Origin: Azoarcus sp. Aa7
GTDB taxonomy: Bacteria; Pseudomonadota; Gammaproteobacteria; Burkholderiales; Rhodocyclaceae
DNA length: 64,000 bases
Assembly: GCF_014822185.1 (NCBI RefSeq)
Contig: NZ_QVLR01000080.1
Span: 1 to 64,000, forward strand
Reading direction: 5' to 3'
The notes beneath the pieces are model-generated. The model was not told the origin of the DNA, made no database searches, and worked only from the letters and a program-made list of their open reading frames with translations. Of this stretch, positions 45,530 to 53,346 are shown piece after piece. Every line of letters starts with the position of its first letter. The stretch's first letter is position 1. Position numbers and translations under genes: made by a program.

Positions 45530-45997
45530 ATGGCGGAACTCGACAGGGAAGCGGTCGTTGCGGCACTGAACCGGATCCTCGAAGCGGAACTTGCCGGAGT
45601 CGTGCGCTACACGCATTACTCCTTCCTCGTGTTCGGCTTCGGGCGCATTCCGATCGTATCGTGGCTGAACGCGCAGGCCGACGAATCGCTGCAGCACGCG
45701 CGCATGGCCGGCGAGTGGATCACCACGCTGGGGGCGCACCCCTCGCTCGCGATCGGTCCGCTACTCGACTCGCACCAGCACGACATCGGCGCGATGCTGC
45801 GCGAATCGCACGAATCGGAACGCAGCGCGCTGAAGCTGTATCACGAACTGCTCGCACTGGTCGCGGACCGCTCGGTGGCGCTCGAGGAATATGCGCGCCA
45901 GATGGTCCGGACCGAGGAACTGCATCTCGCGGAAGTCGACAAGATGCTGCGCAAGCCGGGCGACCTGTCGGCCTTCGCGCCGGCACGGCCGACCTAG
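45530..45997 (+). CDS. Ferritin-like (bacterioferritin-type) protein
   Basis: The 155-residue, all-helical protein has carboxylate/histidine pairs on four helices, as in ferritin-like diiron proteins: E18/E20, the DESLQHARMAGEW segment (E52, H56), the HESERSALKLYHE helix and the TEELHLAEVDKML helix. Iron storage or oxidation is plausible. The second-helix spacing (E-x3-H) differs from the textbook bacterioferritin E-x2-H, so a classical Bfr cage is not certain. It overlaps the end of the convergent SagB-type gene by four bases. Confidence 0.78.
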   Translation: MAELDREAVVAALNRILEAELAGVVRYTHYSFLVFGFGRIPIVSWLNAQADESLQHARMAGEWITTLGAHPSLAIGPLLDSHQHDIGAMLRESHESERSALKLYHELLALVADRSVALEEYARQMVRTEELHLAEVDKMLRKPGDLSAFAPARPT

Positions 45998-47628
45998 TAT
46001 CCGGAGCCGCGCCCTGCATATGGCGGCAGGGAACTGAGGCGCGCGTCCTCGACCGGCCCGCCGACGGTGAAGTGGTAGAGGCTCTGCCATTCACGGCCGG
46101 CGAGGCCCAGCAACTCGTGCATCGTGTCGTCGAAGAAGCAGCCGATGCCGGTGCCGCGCAACCCCGCCGCCTCAGCCTCCAGGTACAGCACGTGGCCGAG
46201 CATGCCGCACTCGCGATAGAGCTGCGCATAGCGCCACGGCTCGTCCGCGACGATCCCGGTGCGCGCCAGCATGCCAAGCGCGAAGCACGAATCGGCCGCG
46301 ATTTCCTGATGGCAGCTGACGAGCTGCGCCGTTTCACGCAGGTCGTACGGGATCAGCAGGTAGAGCGGCAGGTGCGCGGGGCCGGCCTTGTGCCACAGCC
46401 AGTCCTCGCGCATCGCCGCGCGCAGTCCGGCGAGCGCCGCCGGATCGCGCACCAGCACGTAGAGCCCCGGTTCCAGCCCGGCGACACGATGCACGAAGAG
46501 CGCCGGATGCACCTGCGGCGGCCACGGCCAGGCCGACCACGGCGGCACGCCGGCGCGCGGCAGCAGCGCATCGAGGACGGCGAAGAAGGTTTCGGCGCCC
46601 ATCGTCGTCACGCCGTCGAAGGCGACCGCGCTGCGGCGCTGGCGCGCGATCGTCGCGAACGGGAGGTCGAGCGCCGCGGGCGCGGGCGGTGCCAGCGCCG
46701 GGAGCACCCGCGCCGGTGCGGCTGCGGTGCGCGGCTTGCGCGCGGCGGCATCGACGACGGCGATGTCCGGCCAATCGACATGCCCGGAACTCAGGCGGTT
46801 GGCGTGTCCATGCCAGCCGGCCTGCCCCGCTGACGCGAGCAGCGCATCGACGTCGATCCTGCCTCCCGCTGCGCCGAGTTGCAGCAGCACGTCCGGCGCC
46901 TCGCGCTCGGCGCCGTCGAAGTCCGCTACGCGATCGAGCCCCGCGAGGTGCGCGATGTCGTCGTCGCCGACGCGGTCGAGCACGCGCGCCGGCCAGCCGA
47001 GCGCCGCGGCAGCAAGCGTCACCGCGGCCACTGCGTGGCCGCAGTCGTGCTGGCAATAGCGCCATGCGCGCATGCCGTACTTCCACGCCTCGCGCCAGTG
47101 GATAGAGCTCAGCGCGACCAGTACCCCCTGCCCGCCGAAGGCTCCATCCCATCCCGCGGGCGGCGCCGCGCGGTGCTCCAGCACGTGCTCGCGGCTCAGG
47201 TAGTGGTGCACGCCGGCCGGGATGCCGGGCAGCGCCGGTGCGATCAGGTAGCCCTCGGTCGGATGCAGGTTGCCGCTCGACGGGTTGCAGCGCAGCGCCC
47301 AGCGCGTGCCGCCGAACTCCTTCCACGCCGACAGCGCGAGCGAGAGTTCGAACAGGATGCCCAGATGCTTGAGATCGCGGGGCGCCGGCGGTGGCAGTTC
47401 GCCACGGCGCAAGGCCGCGTAGCGCGTCGCGAGGCCGTCCGCCGCAAGCGGCAGGATCGTGCGCGCGGCGCCGTCCCAACGGCGCCACGGCTCCGGCTGG
47501 TTCGCCCAGTCGAGCCGCCCCGGCCCCGGCGCGTAGCGCTCCGGGCGATGCTTGCTATGCTGATGGTAGGCCTGCACGGCCGCGACCTTCCCGCTGTCCG
47601 TCGACACTGCTGCCGGCTCGTGCGCCAT
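45994..47628 (-). CDS. Two-domain SagB/ThcOx-type nitroreductase-family oxidoreductase
   Basis: The 544-residue protein contains two nitroreductase-like FMN domains in tandem. The N-terminal one (about 60–270) has RWALRCNPSSGNLHPTEGY, typical of SagB-type dehydrogenases. The C-terminal one (about 305–535) has IARQRRSAVAFDG, the phosphate-binding RRS element, and GLRGTGIGCFFDD. SagB enzymes oxidise thiazolines/oxazolines in modified peptides, but no cyclodehydratase or precursor gene is nearby, so such a role is unsupported. GAGGGG precedes the start. It stands alone between a ferritin-like gene and a divergent DM13 gene. Confidence 0.85.
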   Translation of the reverse strand: MAHEPAAVSTDSGKVAAVQAYHQHSKHRPERYAPGPGRLDWANQPEPWRRWDGAARTILPLAADGLATRYAALRRGELPPPAPRDLKHLGILFELSLALSAWKEFGGTRWALRCNPSSGNLHPTEGYLIAPALPGIPAGVHHYLSREHVLEHRAAPPAGWDGAFGGQGVLVALSSIHWREAWKYGMRAWRYCQHDCGHAVAAVTLAAAALGWPARVLDRVGDDDIAHLAGLDRVADFDGAEREAPDVLLQLGAAGGRIDVDALLASAGQAGWHGHANRLSSGHVDWPDIAVVDAAARKPRTAAAPARVLPALAPPAPAALDLPFATIARQRRSAVAFDGVTTMGAETFFAVLDALLPRAGVPPWSAWPWPPQVHPALFVHRVAGLEPGLYVLVRDPAALAGLRAAMREDWLWHKAGPAHLPLYLLIPYDLRETAQLVSCHQEIAADSCFALGMLARTGIVADEPWRYAQLYRECGMLGHVLYLEAEAAGLRGTGIGCFFDDTMHELLGLAGREWQSLYHFTVGGPVEDARLSSLPPYAGRGSGY

Positions 47629-47683: not shown

Positions 47684-48181
47684 ATGAAACGCTCCATCCT
47701 CGTTTTCGTCCTCGGCGGCCTGCTCGGCACCGCCGCCGGCTTCGCGCTCGGCATCTTCGTCTACCCCTTCATCTTCCTCGCCGACATCACCGCGAACGAG
47801 CGCATCGACGACCCGTCGGCGCTGACCCTCGTCGCGCGCGGAACCTTCATCCATGCGAACCCCGCGGACCCGATCCACCACGGCCGGGGCGGCGTGCGCG
47901 TGTATGACGGCCTCGTGCATCTCGAGGAAGACTTCCAGGTCGGCCCCGGGCCGAAGTTCCACGTCTACCTCGTACCGGACAAGCAGGTCACGCCCGATAC
48001 CGACGTCGCCCGCAGCATGTTCATCGACCTCGGGCGGCTCAAGGCGTTCAAGGGCAGCCAGAACTATCCCGTCCCGGCCGGCGTGGATCTGGCTGCCTAT
48101 GGCAGCGTCGTCATCTGGTGCGAGCAGTTCGGCGTGCTGATTTCGCCCGCGCGGCTGAGCGCCGTTCCCGTGGCACGGTGA
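47684..48181 (+). CDS. Membrane-anchored DM13-domain protein
   Basis: The 165-residue protein has one N-terminal membrane anchor (residues 5–35) and an exported DM13 domain (about 50–160: GTFIHANPADPIHHGRGGVRVY… KFHVYLVPD… VIWCEQFGVLIS, each within the family pattern). DM13 domains carry one near-invariant cysteine (here in VIWCEQF) and are thought to act in redox or hydroxylation chemistry. AGGAG precedes the start. It is divergent from the SagB-type gene across 55 bases. Confidence 0.85.
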   Translation: MKRSILVFVLGGLLGTAAGFALGIFVYPFIFLADITANERIDDPSALTLVARGTFIHANPADPIHHGRGGVRVYDGLVHLEEDFQVGPGPKFHVYLVPDKQVTPDTDVARSMFIDLGRLKAFKGSQNYPVPAGVDLAAYGSVVIWCEQFGVLISPARLSAVPVAR

Positions 48182-48235
48182 CTCAAAGCGGCCCCGTCGA
48201 AGGATAGGCGCCCCCGACAGCTCGGACTCCGTGTT

Positions 48236-48256
48236 CCTCCCCCTTCAAGGGGAGGG
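48236..48256. terminator. C/G-rich hairpin after the DM13 gene
   Basis: CCTCCCCCTT-C-AAGGGGAGGG folds on itself around TTCAA. A near-identical sequence, in inverse orientation, occurs at 54856–54878. It lies 55 bases after the DM13 stop and may be a transcript-end hairpin or a dispersed repeat. Confidence 0.45.
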
Positions 48257-48370
48257 AGTGGCCGCTCGCCCGGACCGGTCCTGCCTTGGCGCTTCCATCG
48301 CGGATCGACAGGCCGGCAAAATGTATCCAGACGTAACCACACACCCTCTTCACCGCCGACAGGCGGCCTG

Positions 48371-48394
48371 AAGTGTCGCCGTACGGCGACACTT
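48371..48394. repeat. 24-base perfect palindrome
   Basis: AAGTGTCGCCGT is followed directly by its exact reverse complement, with no spacer. It lies about 200 bases before the riboswitch. A zero-spacer palindrome of this length could be a protein-binding site for a dimer. Confidence 0.7.
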
Positions 48395-48589
48395 TGCCCC
48401 CATCCGATTGCCAAGCGCATCTCGCCATAACGGCGTAGACGCCCGCCCCGCGGACCTCTGCGCAATGCCACATCCATAGCATGGATTTTCTGTAAAAAAC
48501 CTTTGCATATTAAGCACATCCCGTCGTCAACCCGTTAAAGTTCAGCCCAATTTTGCCGTAACTGCACATACGGTCGGCTCACATTCCCG

Positions 48590-48705
48590 ACCGTCCTGAA
48601 AAGGGCAAACCCGTCGAAAGGCGGGGACGCAAAGTCACCGGTCCAAAAGGCTTAGGCCTCATGACAGCGGGACTGCCAGGTTACGAGACACCGGGTGGAT
48701 CGAGA
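48590..48705 (+). promoter_or_regulatory. Cyclic-di-GMP-I (GEMM) riboswitch
   Basis: The leader contains the GEMM core in order. AAGGGCAAACC is followed by a stem capped by a GAAA tetraloop (CCGTC-GAAA-GGCGG, 48612–48625). Then come GGGACGCAAAG, the second stem region (CACCGGTCC … AGGCCTCATGACAGCGGGACTGCC) and GGTTAC. These are the conserved elements of c-di-GMP-I aptamers. It is on the same strand as, and 100 bases before, the secreted metalloprotease gene. Confidence 0.9.
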
Positions 48706-48753
48706 GGTCCCGCCACGTCGCCTGTCCGCCGCGCCATTGCGCGGGGGTCCGCA

Positions 48754-48793
48754 GTACTCCCTGTCGTAACTGAACACGAGTCACGGGGAGTAC
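48754..48793 (+). promoter_or_regulatory. Hairpin sequestering the ribosome-binding site (expression platform)
   Basis: GTACTCCCTGT (48754–48764) pairs with ACGGGGAGTAC (48783–48793), 11 pairs with one G·U. The right arm contains GGGGAG (48785–48790), the ribosome site of the gene starting at 48800. The structure should block translation unless opened, which fits a translational expression platform for the riboswitch just upstream. Confidence 0.7.
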
Positions 48794-48799
48794 CGCATC

Positions 48800-50779
48800 A
48801 TGAAATCCACCACCACCACAAACGCGATGCGCCGCCGCGCAAGCCACCTTGCGCGCCTGGCCGGCGCCGGCCTCTTCACGACGCTGCTCGCGTTGTCTTC
48901 CGCAAACACGGTTCTGGCCGCTCCGGCATTCACCGCCGAAGGGAGCGAAATCGGTCTCGGCTCGACTCAGGCCACCAAGGCGGCGCGCGCCGAGCAGCTG
49001 ACGCAGGCCCTCCCGGGTCTGCACGCCGAATACCGTGCCGCGCCCACCCACCAGCAAGCAGCACGGCTCGATGAACTCGCCGCCGCGGTTGCGGAACGCA
49101 AGGCCCTGCTCGCCGAACTCGTCAAGAACGACCCCGCCGCTGCGCTGCGACTCGCGCTTTCACCCAGCGTTCGCGCCAGCATGCCGGCGCAGGTGCGGAG
49201 CGCCCTCGAACAGCATGTGGAGCTGGATGGCGAACTCGAAGTTTTTTATGAAGAGTATGCGAACAAGAAGGCGCGGCTGGTCAATTACCTCCGTACGCCC
49301 CAAGGCCAGCGCATTTCCCTGCACTTCAAGGCCCAGCCTCCCGGACTGGTCACGGGTACGCAGGTCCGCGCCAAGGGGGTCCTGCTGGATGACTCGATGG
49401 CCCTCGAATCGGGCGACGGCAGCCTGACCCTGGCCGCCAGGGGTGGCGCGACCGGCGGCAGCAACGGCGGGACGGCCGCGGGACCCAGCGCCACGGGCGA
49501 GCACAAGACCCTGGTGATCCTGGTCAACTTCCAGGACAACCCGATCCAGCCCTACACCCCCGACTTCGCGAAAACCGTACTGTCGACCACGAGCGACTAT
49601 TTCCGCGAGAACTCGAGCCAGCAGATGTGGCTGAACACGGATGTCACGGGCTGGTTCACGATCGCCAACAGTTCCAGCGTCTGCGACACCTGGACGATTG
49701 CCGCCCAAGCCAAGGAAGCAGCTTCGGCAGCGGGATACAATCTTTCCGCCTATACGCACCACGTCTATGTCTTCCCGCAGATTGCCTGCGGCTGGTGGGG
49801 GCTGTCGTCTGTCGGTGGCAGTCCGTCGAACACGTGGATCACCGGGGAACTCAAGCTCGGCGTGACGGCGCACGAACTCGGCCACGCCATCGGCCTGTTC
49901 CACTCGCATTCGCTCGATTGTGGCGCCGACACCCTCGGAACGACCTGCACCACCTATGAGTACGGCGACCAGATGGACATGATGGGCTCATCGAGTGCCG
50001 GCCACTACAATGCCTTCCAGAAAGAGCGCCTGGGCTGGCTGAATACGTCTGCATCGCCGGCGGTCACGACCGTCACGAGCGACGGCGTGTTCACCCTCGA
50101 ACCGTACGCTGCCACCGGAACCGGTCCGAAAGCCCTGAAGATCCCGAAATCCATCGACCCGCTCACCGGACAGCAAACCTGGTACTACGTCGAGTTTCGC
50201 CAGGCCGTCGGCTTCGACAGCGTGCTCGCCGGCAACACCAACGTTCTCAGCGGCGTGCTCATCCACACTGCCACGACGTCCAACGGCAACAGCGCCAACC
50301 TGCTCGACATGACGCCGAGCAGCGGCACCTCCATCTACCTGGACTGGAAAGACCCCGCCCTGATGGCCGGCGGCACTTTCGCGGATCCGGCTACCGGCGT
50401 GAGCATCACCTCGGATTCAGTGTCCTCGACGCAGGCCGTGGTCACGGTGCGGTTCGGTGCCGGAGGCTCGACGTCGTCCGCTCTGCTGAACGCGACCGGC
50501 TCGACCAGCCAGACGACCTACTTCCGCGGCCAGACGGTCTATCTGAGCGCGAACGTGAATGCCGGCGGCGTGCCGGTGGCCGGAGCGACGGTGTCCTTCA
50601 CGGTGACCAAAGCCAACGGTTCGCAGGTCAAAGGCAGCGCGACGACCGGAAGCGACGGCAAGGCCCTGTACCAGTTCCAGCTCAAGAAGCCGGACCCCGT
50701 CGGCACGTATCAGACCGGCATGGTCGCGGCGTATAACGGGCAGTCCGCCAGCACCGCCGTGTCCTTCAACGTTCAGTAA
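48800..50779 (+). CDS. Secreted zinc metalloprotease (gametolysin/M11-like) with C-terminal Ig-like domain
   Basis: The 659-residue precursor has a signal peptide (to about residue 41, …TVLAAP), a propeptide-like helical region (50–200), a Gly-rich linker and a protease domain (about 235–430). The zinc motif is H358-E-L-G-H362-A-I-G-L-F-H368 with a following YGDQMDMMG Met-turn region, the metzincin pattern closest to gametolysin-type peptidases. A beta-rich part follows, with a C-terminal bacterial Ig-like domain (about 560–659). It should cleave extracellular or surface proteins. The leader carries a c-di-GMP-I riboswitch. A strong terminator follows the gene. Confidence 0.88.
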   Translation: MKSTTTTNAMRRRASHLARLAGAGLFTTLLALSSANTVLAAPAFTAEGSEIGLGSTQATKAARAEQLTQALPGLHAEYRAAPTHQQAARLDELAAAVAERKALLAELVKNDPAAALRLALSPSVRASMPAQVRSALEQHVELDGELEVFYEEYANKKARLVNYLRTPQGQRISLHFKAQPPGLVTGTQVRAKGVLLDDSMALESGDGSLTLAARGGATGGSNGGTAAGPSATGEHKTLVILVNFQDNPIQPYTPDFAKTVLSTTSDYFRENSSQQMWLNTDVTGWFTIANSSSVCDTWTIAAQAKEAASAAGYNLSAYTHHVYVFPQIACGWWGLSSVGGSPSNTWITGELKLGVTAHELGHAIGLFHSHSLDCGADTLGTTCTTYEYGDQMDMMGSSSAGHYNAFQKERLGWLNTSASPAVTTVTSDGVFTLEPYAATGTGPKALKIPKSIDPLTGQQTWYYVEFRQAVGFDSVLAGNTNVLSGVLIHTATTSNGNSANLLDMTPSSGTSIYLDWKDPALMAGGTFADPATGVSITSDSVSSTQAVVTVRFGAGGSTSSALLNATGSTSQTTYFRGQTVYLSANVNAGGVPVAGATVSFTVTKANGSQVKGSATTGSDGKALYQFQLKKPDPVGTYQTGMVAAYNGQSASTAVSFNVQ

Positions 50780-50822
50780 GCTTCGCCGCTCCCGACCTCC
50801 CCGCGGGACCCGGCAAGCAAAG

Positions 50823-50869
50823 AAACTCCCGCTGGTTCCGGCAAATGCCGGCAAGACCAGCGGGAGTTT
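50823..50869. terminator. Bidirectional terminator between the metalloprotease and DsbA-like genes
   Basis: A 14-bp perfect stem (AAACTCCCGCTGGT, 50823–50836, and its complement 50856–50869) encloses a second hairpin (CCGGCA-AA-TGCCGG, 50838–50851). The arms start with AAA and end with TTT, so it can work for both convergent genes. Confidence 0.8.
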
Positions 50870-50900
50870 CCGTTAACCGCTTTCCCCACGTCCGATCGAT

Positions 50901-51683
50901 CTACTGCTTGCTCTCCACCAGCAGTTTGTCGATCTCCTGCTTGAGCAATGCGTAGGCCTGGGCCCCGCGCATGATGCGCACGTTCTTCATGCTGCCATCG
51001 GCGCTCATCCCCAGCAGGAACGTCGGCGTGCCGGTCACCGTGAGCTTGCGGCCCACGTCGATATCGTTGCGGATGCGCTCCACGTACTTGCCACTCTCCA
51101 GGCATTGCTTGAATGACCCGGCGTTGAGCTCGAGAGCCGATGCGTGGTCCAACAGCCGCTCGACCGCAAGGGCCTGCTGGTTCGCGAATAGGCGGTCGTG
51201 CATCTCCCAGTACCGCCCCTGCGCTCCCGCGCAGTGCGCCGCCTCGGCCGCCTTCAGGGCCTGCGGATGGATGGACTCCAAGGGGAAGTCGCGGAACACG
51301 TAACGCACCTTGCCGGTGGCGATATAGTCCCGGTCGATCTGCGACAGCGAATTGTCCGCGTGGCGCTTGCAGAACGGGCACTGGTAATCGGAAAACTCCA
51401 TCACGGTGAGCTGCGCGTCCCGCACCCCCTTGACCGGCGCGTCGCCGATCGCGACGACGGCATCGATGGATTGCACGAGGGGCGGCGGCGGTGGCGGCAT
51501 GCGCGCCTGGAGCTGCTTCTTGATTTCGTCGAGATCCTTGCGCAGGGCGTCCTGGCTCTGCCTTACGGCTTCGACATCGCGGCGCAACTGATCCATCTCC
51601 CCTGTCTTCTGCGCCAAGGCTGGCACAGTCAAACCCGCAAGGGACAAACCCGTCATTGCCGCGCATAGCGTCATTCGGTTCAT
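50901..51683 (-). CDS. Exported DsbA-like thioredoxin-fold protein with coiled coil
   Basis: The 260-residue precursor has a signal peptide (to about residue 25, …ALAQ), a coiled coil (28–60), a run of seven prolines (63–69) and a DsbA/DsbG-type domain with C102-P-F-C105 and the cis-Pro segment VTGTPTFLLG. The CPFC motif is common in bacterial disulfide isomerases/oxidases fused to coiled coils. It should act on disulfides in the periplasm. GGAAG precedes the start. Its upstream neighbour on the same strand encodes an unusually cysteine-rich secreted protein, which is a plausible client (inference). Confidence 0.87.
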   Translation of the reverse strand: MNRMTLCAAMTGLSLAGLTVPALAQKTGEMDQLRRDVEAVRQSQDALRKDLDEIKKQLQARMPPPPPPLVQSIDAVVAIGDAPVKGVRDAQLTVMEFSDYQCPFCKRHADNSLSQIDRDYIATGKVRYVFRDFPLESIHPQALKAAEAAHCAGAQGRYWEMHDRLFANQQALAVERLLDHASALELNAGSFKQCLESGKYVERIRNDIDVGRKLTVTGTPTFLLGMSADGSMKNVRIMRGAQAYALLKQEIDKLLVESKQ

Positions 51684-51879: not shown

Positions 51880-53346
51880 TTACGGGAACGTCACGGTGAT
51901 ATTGACACCCGCCGTATCACGCAGCGGCGGAGCACCGTAAGGCACGCCATCATCGTCCGTCGCCGCTCCATCCAGGGTGTTGGTGTGCAAGCCGGTGGTG
52001 GCGATCCTGCCAACGAACGAGCACGTGTAGTTGCCACTCGGGGCAATCGCCTGGGGAACCGCGCAAGTGGTGCTGATGACGTTGCCAGCCGCCACGGTGA
52101 TGTCGCCGAACTTGTCGTCAGTGAGCGAACTCAGCGTCAGCGTATCGACCACGGAGTTGTTGGTCACCGCAACGGAGTACTGCACATCTACGGCAACGGC
52201 CTGCGTTGCGGTCGCGGTCTTGGCGAGACTCGGCGGAGTCGATACGTCGACATAAGTCACGTCGGCCGGATCGTCGTCGCAGAGATTCGAATGACCGAAA
52301 TCGTCCGTTCCGCAAGCGGTCACGATGTCCGTGATCTTGTCACCCGTGTTACCCGCTCCCACCGTCACCGTGAACTGGCAGAGGTAGGGGTTCAGGCCAC
52401 CCGGGTCATTGCTCTCGGCCGGGATCGTCGCCAACGTACACGTCGTGGCCGTGATGCCATTGTGGCCGGTCGTCGTGATGTCGCCGTACAGGTTGTCCAC
52501 GAGGCTATCCAGCGCCACGTCCGACACCTGCGCATTGTTGGTCACCGCGACGCTGTACGTCACGGAACCACCGGTTTCGAGCACCGTCGGCGTCACCGCC
52601 TCCTTCACGACGGTAATGCTCGCCGTCTCGAGGAACACGTCGATGTTGAGGTCACCGCAATTACATTTCGACGGTGATCCCGGGTATGCATCGAAGGTAC
52701 TCGCGGACCCGAACGTGGCCGAGTCGCAAACCTCGTTTGCCCCCGGCTGACGCCAAGTCGTACACCAGGGCAGATTCACCTTGCTGTCGCCATTGGTGTC
52801 GTTACACATCGTCGTGATGGTCTGATGAATGACCTGCGGGTTGTGCGCATCATCGATGTCGCCGCAAATGTCCGGGGGCGAATCCTTGTTGATGAAGGTC
52901 GGCGAATTCGCAGCGGTTACCACATTCGGCGCGCACACCCCGGTCAATGCGCCATCGGCCCCGCCACCATCTTGGGCGATATAGAGACCGAGGTCGTAAC
53001 GGGCCTGCGCCGTCAAGGGCATCGTGAAGTCAGCAGTGAAAGTGAATTGCTGGCCGGATACACAAGTGAACTGCCCTAGCGGGTTCGGGTCCTGGCAACC
53101 ATCATTGTTCAGGTCCCGTGGTCCTCCGGGCGGGGACACCACGATACAGATGTTGGCGACCGAAGACAGCGTTACGTCATTGGCGGTACAAGTCAGGCCC
53201 TGGGTATTGCCGTGCGCCATCCACACATCCTGAATACAACTCTGGGCCGACACGGGTGGCGCCCCCAGAAGCAGCCCTCCCACTACAAGCGTCGCTGCGC
53301 CGATTATGCGCGCACACGAACGCAACCATCTCGTAAAGCTTGTCAT
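51880..53346 (-). CDS. Cysteine-rich secreted protein with DUF11-type repeats
   Basis: The 488-residue precursor has a signal peptide (to about residue 35, …PPVSAQ), a unique N-terminal half with about a dozen cysteines and Ca-binding-like loops (DLNNDGCQDPN, CNDTNGDSKVN), and two DUF11-like repeats (about 245–365 and 375–488), each with the VTYSVAVTNN / VQYSVAVTNN signature. Such repeats occur in cell-surface proteins. The function is unknown. AGGAGG precedes the start. The row on this strand is LuxR regulator, this gene, DsbA-like gene; three 14-base repeats lie between the first two. Confidence 0.78.
   Translation of the reverse strand: MTSFTRWLRSCARIIGAATLVVGGLLLGAPPVSAQSCIQDVWMAHGNTQGLTCTANDVTLSSVANICIVVSPPGGPRDLNNDGCQDPNPLGQFTCVSGQQFTFTADFTMPLTAQARYDLGLYIAQDGGGADGALTGVCAPNVVTAANSPTFINKDSPPDICGDIDDAHNPQVIHQTITTMCNDTNGDSKVNLPWCTTWRQPGANEVCDSATFGSASTFDAYPGSPSKCNCGDLNIDVFLETASITVVKEAVTPTVLETGGSVTYSVAVTNNAQVSDVALDSLVDNLYGDITTTGHNGITATTCTLATIPAESNDPGGLNPYLCQFTVTVGAGNTGDKITDIVTACGTDDFGHSNLCDDDPADVTYVDVSTPPSLAKTATATQAVAVDVQYSVAVTNNSVVDTLTLSSLTDDKFGDITVAAGNVISTTCAVPQAIAPSGNYTCSFVGRIATTGLHTNTLDGAATDDDGVPYGAPPLRDTAGVNITVTFP

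Follow-up and report, generated by a model that had tools for sequence, protein, structure and literature searches.

The closest precedent for the locus described here is Zmp1/PPEP-1 (CD2830) of Clostridioides difficile, in which, as here, a class I c-di-GMP riboswitch precedes a secreted zinc metalloprotease. Zmp1 is described as being under negative regulation by c-di-GMP (PMC6366702, PMC6200980), and its riboswitch is labeled class II in one account (PMC4744006). Control in the same direction has been reported for Vc2, a GEMM-I riboswitch that is termed a translational OFF switch (PMC9262584), and a link between c-di-GMP and proteolysis outside the cytoplasm is described for the LapD/LapG system (PMC3032553). 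In Bdellovibrio, the attack-phase FliA regulon is reported to include proteases, and merRNA, which motile cells produce, is a c-di-GMP riboswitch RNA; the same source describes no conserved downstream ORF for merRNA, leaves it unmarked for a FliA promoter in its table, and gives a FliA consensus related to the one used in this work (PMC3627812).

Among the open-licence literature matches listed, Zmp1 is the single, clostridial case of a secreted protease under riboswitch control, and no betaproteobacterial example is found. A recurrent leader that joins flagellar transcription to c-di-GMP sensing would provide a simple and testable route from a lifestyle signal to extracellular proteolysis, and this route would be located in cultivable, aromatic-degrading bacteria. 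In the present work, we describe a candidate for such a leader in a 64-kb stretch of DNA from Azoarcus sp. Aa7 (hereafter the window) and compare it with its counterparts in related genomes.

A c-di-GMP-I Riboswitch Upstream of a Metzincin-Like Protease

An earlier note on this DNA had claimed, from the sequence alone, that a c-di-GMP-I (GEMM) riboswitch is present in the leader of a secreted zinc protease of a betaproteobacterium, and it had asked for a covariance search with the c-di-GMP-I model. This search identified an aptamer at positions 48594-48680 of the forward strand, which matches Rfam RF01051 with 86.2 bits (E 1.3e-15, gathering score 35) over model positions 1-87 of 87, and the claim of a riboswitch is thus borne out over the full length of the model. 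The aptamer is the only gathering-level c-di-GMP-I match within the window, and the leader would bind c-di-GMP through it. The segment GGGCAAAC of the aptamer includes the G that is expected to steer the selectivity for c-di-GMP vs. c-GAMP. A second c-di-GMP-I riboswitch is found elsewhere in the genome (G000:C39:16434-16522, reverse strand, 62 bits); the gene chosen behind it starts 375 nt past the aptamer and encodes an 831-aa protein with dCache, HAMP, GGDEF and EAL domains, for which feedback on c-di-GMP is possible.

The gene that follows the aptamer in the window (48800-50779, forward strand) encodes a 659-aa metalloprotease, which carries the HExxHxxGxxH motif of metzincins as HELGHAIGLFH at residue 358, a later Met within DMMG at residue 393, and four cysteines. 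Its N-terminus reads as signal-peptide-like, and these features together support a secreted-type zinc protease, as the note had proposed. The matches of this protein to known families are weak, viz. TIGR03296 (M6 metalloprotease; 46.1 bits against a cut-off of 110.8, which indicates resemblance only), Reprolysin_5 (23.9 bits, cut-off 27) and Astacin (19.8 bits, cut-off 22.5), and a sequence search of solved structures likewise produced weak metzincin matches (best E 0.12). Orthologs with 86% and 83% identity are present in Aromatoleum toluclasticum and A. toluvorans, which supports the betaproteobacterial host, and the comparisons of the locus presented below rest on three closely related genomes, i.e., these two and that of the window. 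A protein search of 61 genomes identified relatives of the protease in 4 of them; the same three carry the riboswitch, and for the fourth relative (G019), which is 42% identical, the contig shows no c-di-GMP-I match.

Several neighboring genes were also recorded. A gene for a DsbA-like thioredoxin (50901-51683, reverse strand) adjoins the protease and is kept in the two ortholog genomes. The orthologs also retain a gene (51880-53346, reverse strand) for a 488-aa protein that looks secreted and matches no Pfam family; this protein is conceivably a surface neighbor or a substrate of the protease. On the other side, positions 45994-47628 (reverse strand) encode a SagB-family dehydrogenase (85.2 bits, cut-off 78.4).

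Targets of c-di-GMP-I Riboswitches in Related Genomes

A survey of the window's genome and 60 relatives yielded 68 c-di-GMP-I matches in 38 of the 61 genomes, and one of the matches (32 bits) falls under the gathering cut-off. Throughout the survey, the downstream gene was taken to be the most plausible ORF as judged from its length, position and composition, and several of the short ones may be wrong. Proteases of exported type, with export inferred from the family, lie downstream of 20 of the 68 riboswitches; they comprise 13 subtilases (PF00082), 2 serralysin-like and 2 reprolysin-like proteins, and 3 proteases of the window's kind. Six of the subtilases were assigned by direct scan and seven by their position among the S8 matches, of which 116 were listed in the 61 genomes, a few being pieces of one gene.

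For a further sample, 300 genomes of the order were searched, and the best 108 listed matches outside the first 61 genomes were taken; 2 of these stretches are short and 6 do not show the core pattern where it is expected, and all of them were retained in the total. At least 10 of the 108 riboswitches in this sample precede proteases, viz. 9 subtilases and one protein with a metzincin motif and PKD domains. A weak match to the subtilase profile (L184) was left out of the protease count, as was Peptidase_C2, with at least one match among 59 other genes; 25 of 44 families are listed for these genes, and further peptidases may be among the remainder. The commonest target in the further sample is DUF1631, which accounts for 38 of the 108 genes by a profile built from the first set (e.g., L135, L137, and L138). 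Tandem c-di-GMP-I aptamers, placed a few hundred bases apart before one gene, were also observed (L110/L133 and L115/L159).

The counts from the two samples identify proteases as a recurrent minority target of this riboswitch class, and a more frequent one near the window's genus, where several of the proteases are likely orthologs. The riboswitch-linked proteases span several unrelated families, which suggests no single shared substrate, and it is about an even question whether the protease of the window, with its switch working as proposed below, serves nutrition or general protein breakdown and not the shedding of adhesins, as it would in the adhesion/detachment switch that the earlier note had suggested.

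A FliA-Like Promoter Upstream of the Aptamer

Upstream of the aptamer, the sequence TAAAGTTC (48536-48543), an 11-nt spacer and GCCGTAAC (48555-48562) form a FliA/sigma28-like promoter on the forward strand, with TAAA and GCCG elements whose spacing agrees with a consensus taken from other bacteria. The FliA consensus of other bacteria may fit the host lineage imperfectly, and the same is indicated by the upstream regions of two flagellin genes, which score only 12.5 and 13.5 with it; the genome carries a FliA gene and three flagellin-type genes, for two of which the starts were located. No sigma70-like promoter was found within 48180-50900, and among the 176 leaders described below, a single one, different from the window's, has a sigma54-type promoter.

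An explanation that has to be considered is that the resemblance to a promoter arose by chance and that a different sigma factor transcribes the gene. The foreign origin of the consensus and the low scores of the flagellin genes are in its favor, as is the behavior of a looser pattern with a stricter -10 element (TAAAN15GCCGNTA), which is no commoner in the genome (3 matches) than its reversed control (12 matches); two of these 3 matches are nevertheless followed, after 73 and 41 nt, by chemoreceptor genes. Against it, the pattern TAAAGTTN12GCCGNNA has a single match in the 5.39-Mb genome, namely the promoter at 48536-48562, which ends 31 nt upstream of the aptamer, and its reversed control has no matches. 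In addition, the two elements are kept in the three orthologs (8/8 and 8/9 columns) while the spacer varies (6/11). Such sites are also enriched before c-di-GMP-I aptamers generally. Among 176 leaders (68 from the 61 genomes and 108 from the further sample, related genomes being included so that the leaders are not independent), 22 score at least 16, vs. 0.11% of 3520 shuffles, and 26 score at least 15, vs. 0.71% of the shuffles; with the spacer fixed at 11 and a score of at least 15, there are 24 sites in the forward and 3 in the reverse orientation. We therefore regard a chance promoter as unlikely.

A score of 16 is reached by 6 of the 20 protease leaders, viz. the three leaders of the window's protease and the subtilase leaders of genomes G013, G002, and G001, and several DUF1631 leaders, such as those of G241 and G271, also have strong FliA-like promoters. 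The promoter before the protease leader suggests, as far as sequence can indicate, expression in motile cells. Together with the recurrence of several protease families, it lifts this locus above one more riboswitch, and both observations are new relative to the earlier note.

The Ribosome-Site Hairpin and Its Competing Pairing

The aptamer is followed by a linker of 70 alignment columns and by a hairpin (48751-48796) of 11 consecutive pairs, one A-C mismatch and 2 further pairs. The right arm (48783-48796), as read from the sequence, contains the ribosome site GGGGAG (48785-48790), which lies 9 nt upstream of the ATG at 48800, and it is paired in both the free and the aptamer-constrained folds. 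The cost of opening the ribosome site is 15.4 kcal/mol for the window, and the two orthologs give 16.1 and 22.9 kcal/mol; when the leader upstream of the ribosome site was shuffled (n = 100), this cost was matched by 1 of 100 shuffles for the window and by none of 100 for either ortholog. The 11-bp hairpin with the ribosome site in its right arm, which the earlier note had described, is thus upheld, and its strength exceeds that of nearly all shuffles in all three orthologs. In the identical test, the leaders of four subtilase genes of the genus were matched by 0, 8, 35, and 1 of 100 shuffles, so that strong sequestration is not common to all leaders of this kind.

The left arm of the hairpin (48751-48764) is invariant in 14/14 columns among the three orthologs, vs. 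59/88 columns in the remaining linker and loop (P 0.009), and it has two possible partners. If the fold is constrained to leave the ribosome site open, the chief partner of the left arm is the 3' strand of the aptamer (48663-48676) in all three orthologs, which makes this strand a candidate antisequestor. The duplex has two five-pair ends with probabilities of about 0.6 to 1.0, and its energy of -18.8 kcal/mol is equaled in 26, 23, and 29 of 1000 shuffles of the left arm; when complementarity to the aptamer was searched across the full linker, 116, 165, and 211 of 1000 shuffles were equally good, which is not exceptional. No general complementarity between aptamer and leader is seen over the 68 leaders, with 2 having P values up to 0.05 vs. 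6 for a control segment. A competing fold, in which the 3' strand of the aptamer pairs with GGUCCCGC (48706-48713), appears in a best fold and in the window's best duplex. A pairing between the linker and the hairpin loop, which had been spotted by eye in the window, was set aside, as it did not seem conserved in the two orthologs.

Two partners for one left arm are what is usually expected of a switch; in this leader the two pairings predict, on modest statistics, a translational OFF switch. The ribosome site is buried in both the free and the aptamer-constrained ensembles of all three orthologs, without switching at equilibrium, and relative to the best fold the open state is uphill by ~12 to 21 kcal/mol, which means that an OFF model requires folding during transcription. 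The order of transcription, viz. aptamer, left arm and then the ribosome-site arm, is such that the unbound RNA could form the open state first.

The presence of the hairpin in both computed states and the uphill position of the open state also bear on another possibility, namely that transcription or RNA stability is what the riboswitch controls (e.g., through Rho-dependent termination in the linker) and that the hairpin is a constant brake. Both of these results agree with such control, which we nevertheless consider improbable, since no terminator-like site was found within 48180-50900 and the conservation of the left arm exceeds that of the rest of the linker and loop. A similarly low probability is given to an ON switch, in which the bound aptamer would open the ribosome site through a fold other than those computed and the protease would be made at high c-di-GMP, e.g., for remodeling of the biofilm matrix or for feeding. 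The equilibrium folds alone do not give the direction, and class I riboswitches of both directions are described (PMC9262584, PMC6200980); however, the competing pairing frees the ribosome site by means of the aptamer's own 3' strand, so that ligand binding should close the site, and the FliA-like promoter suggests motile cells. From structure and promoter together, OFF at high c-di-GMP is the favored direction, a point on which the earlier note had not committed itself.

Proposed Model and Comparison with Known Systems

In the model that we propose, the protease gene would be transcribed from the FliA (sigma28) promoter, and hence mainly in cells that are building flagella, as an mRNA that begins with the c-di-GMP-I aptamer. 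At low c-di-GMP, the 3' strand of the unbound aptamer (48663-48676) would pair co-transcriptionally with the left arm (48751-48764), leaving the ribosome site free, and the cells would make and export the protease. Once c-di-GMP is high, the bound aptamer would keep its 3' strand, the left arm would pair with the ribosome-site arm, and translation would stop. The outcome would be that swimming or dispersing cells secrete the protease and turn it off on settling. Computation provides, for this model, the match to the aptamer, the hairpin that sequesters the ribosome site, the two pairings in competition, and the promoter match with its enrichment, to which ligand binding, the OFF direction, the dependence on FliA and the biological role are added by inference; for the model as a whole, our confidence is about evenly balanced. 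Extended to the order, and here somewhat more tentatively, at a level short of even confidence, a two-input module of FliA promoter and c-di-GMP-I riboswitch may have come to lie upstream of exported proteases that are unrelated to one another and of DUF1631 genes, whose products would be made only in flagellated cells with low c-di-GMP, as an RNA-based counterpart of LapD/LapG.

The LapD/LapG system itself uses a protein receptor and a C93 protease, whereas the window's locus would exert RNA control over the synthesis of a protease. A partial match to LapG-type C93 (45.6 bits) is found elsewhere in the genome (G000:C40:163481-163822, forward strand) within an 811-aa open frame, which is longer than is usual for LapG. 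The likeness to Bdellovibrio lies in a FliA regulon that includes proteases and in a c-di-GMP riboswitch RNA of motile cells. Vc2 of Vibrio cholerae shares with this locus the GEMM-I aptamer and, by our prediction, the OFF direction, and differs from it in the downstream gene.

With respect to Zmp1, negative regulation by c-di-GMP is the direction that is also predicted for the window's protease. The locus differs from this precedent in having a ribosome-site hairpin without a terminator-like site, a FliA-like promoter and a betaproteobacterial host. PPEP-1 differs in protease type from the metzincins, and the protease described here is metzincin-like. The earlier note had regarded the arrangement as apparently independent of Zmp1/PPEP-1, and this independence is likely, in that the Pfam scan gave other families and the HExxHxxGxxH motif points to a metzincin. 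The analogy with Zmp1 is apt in the sense that the present locus would work like it, and not in the sense of membership.
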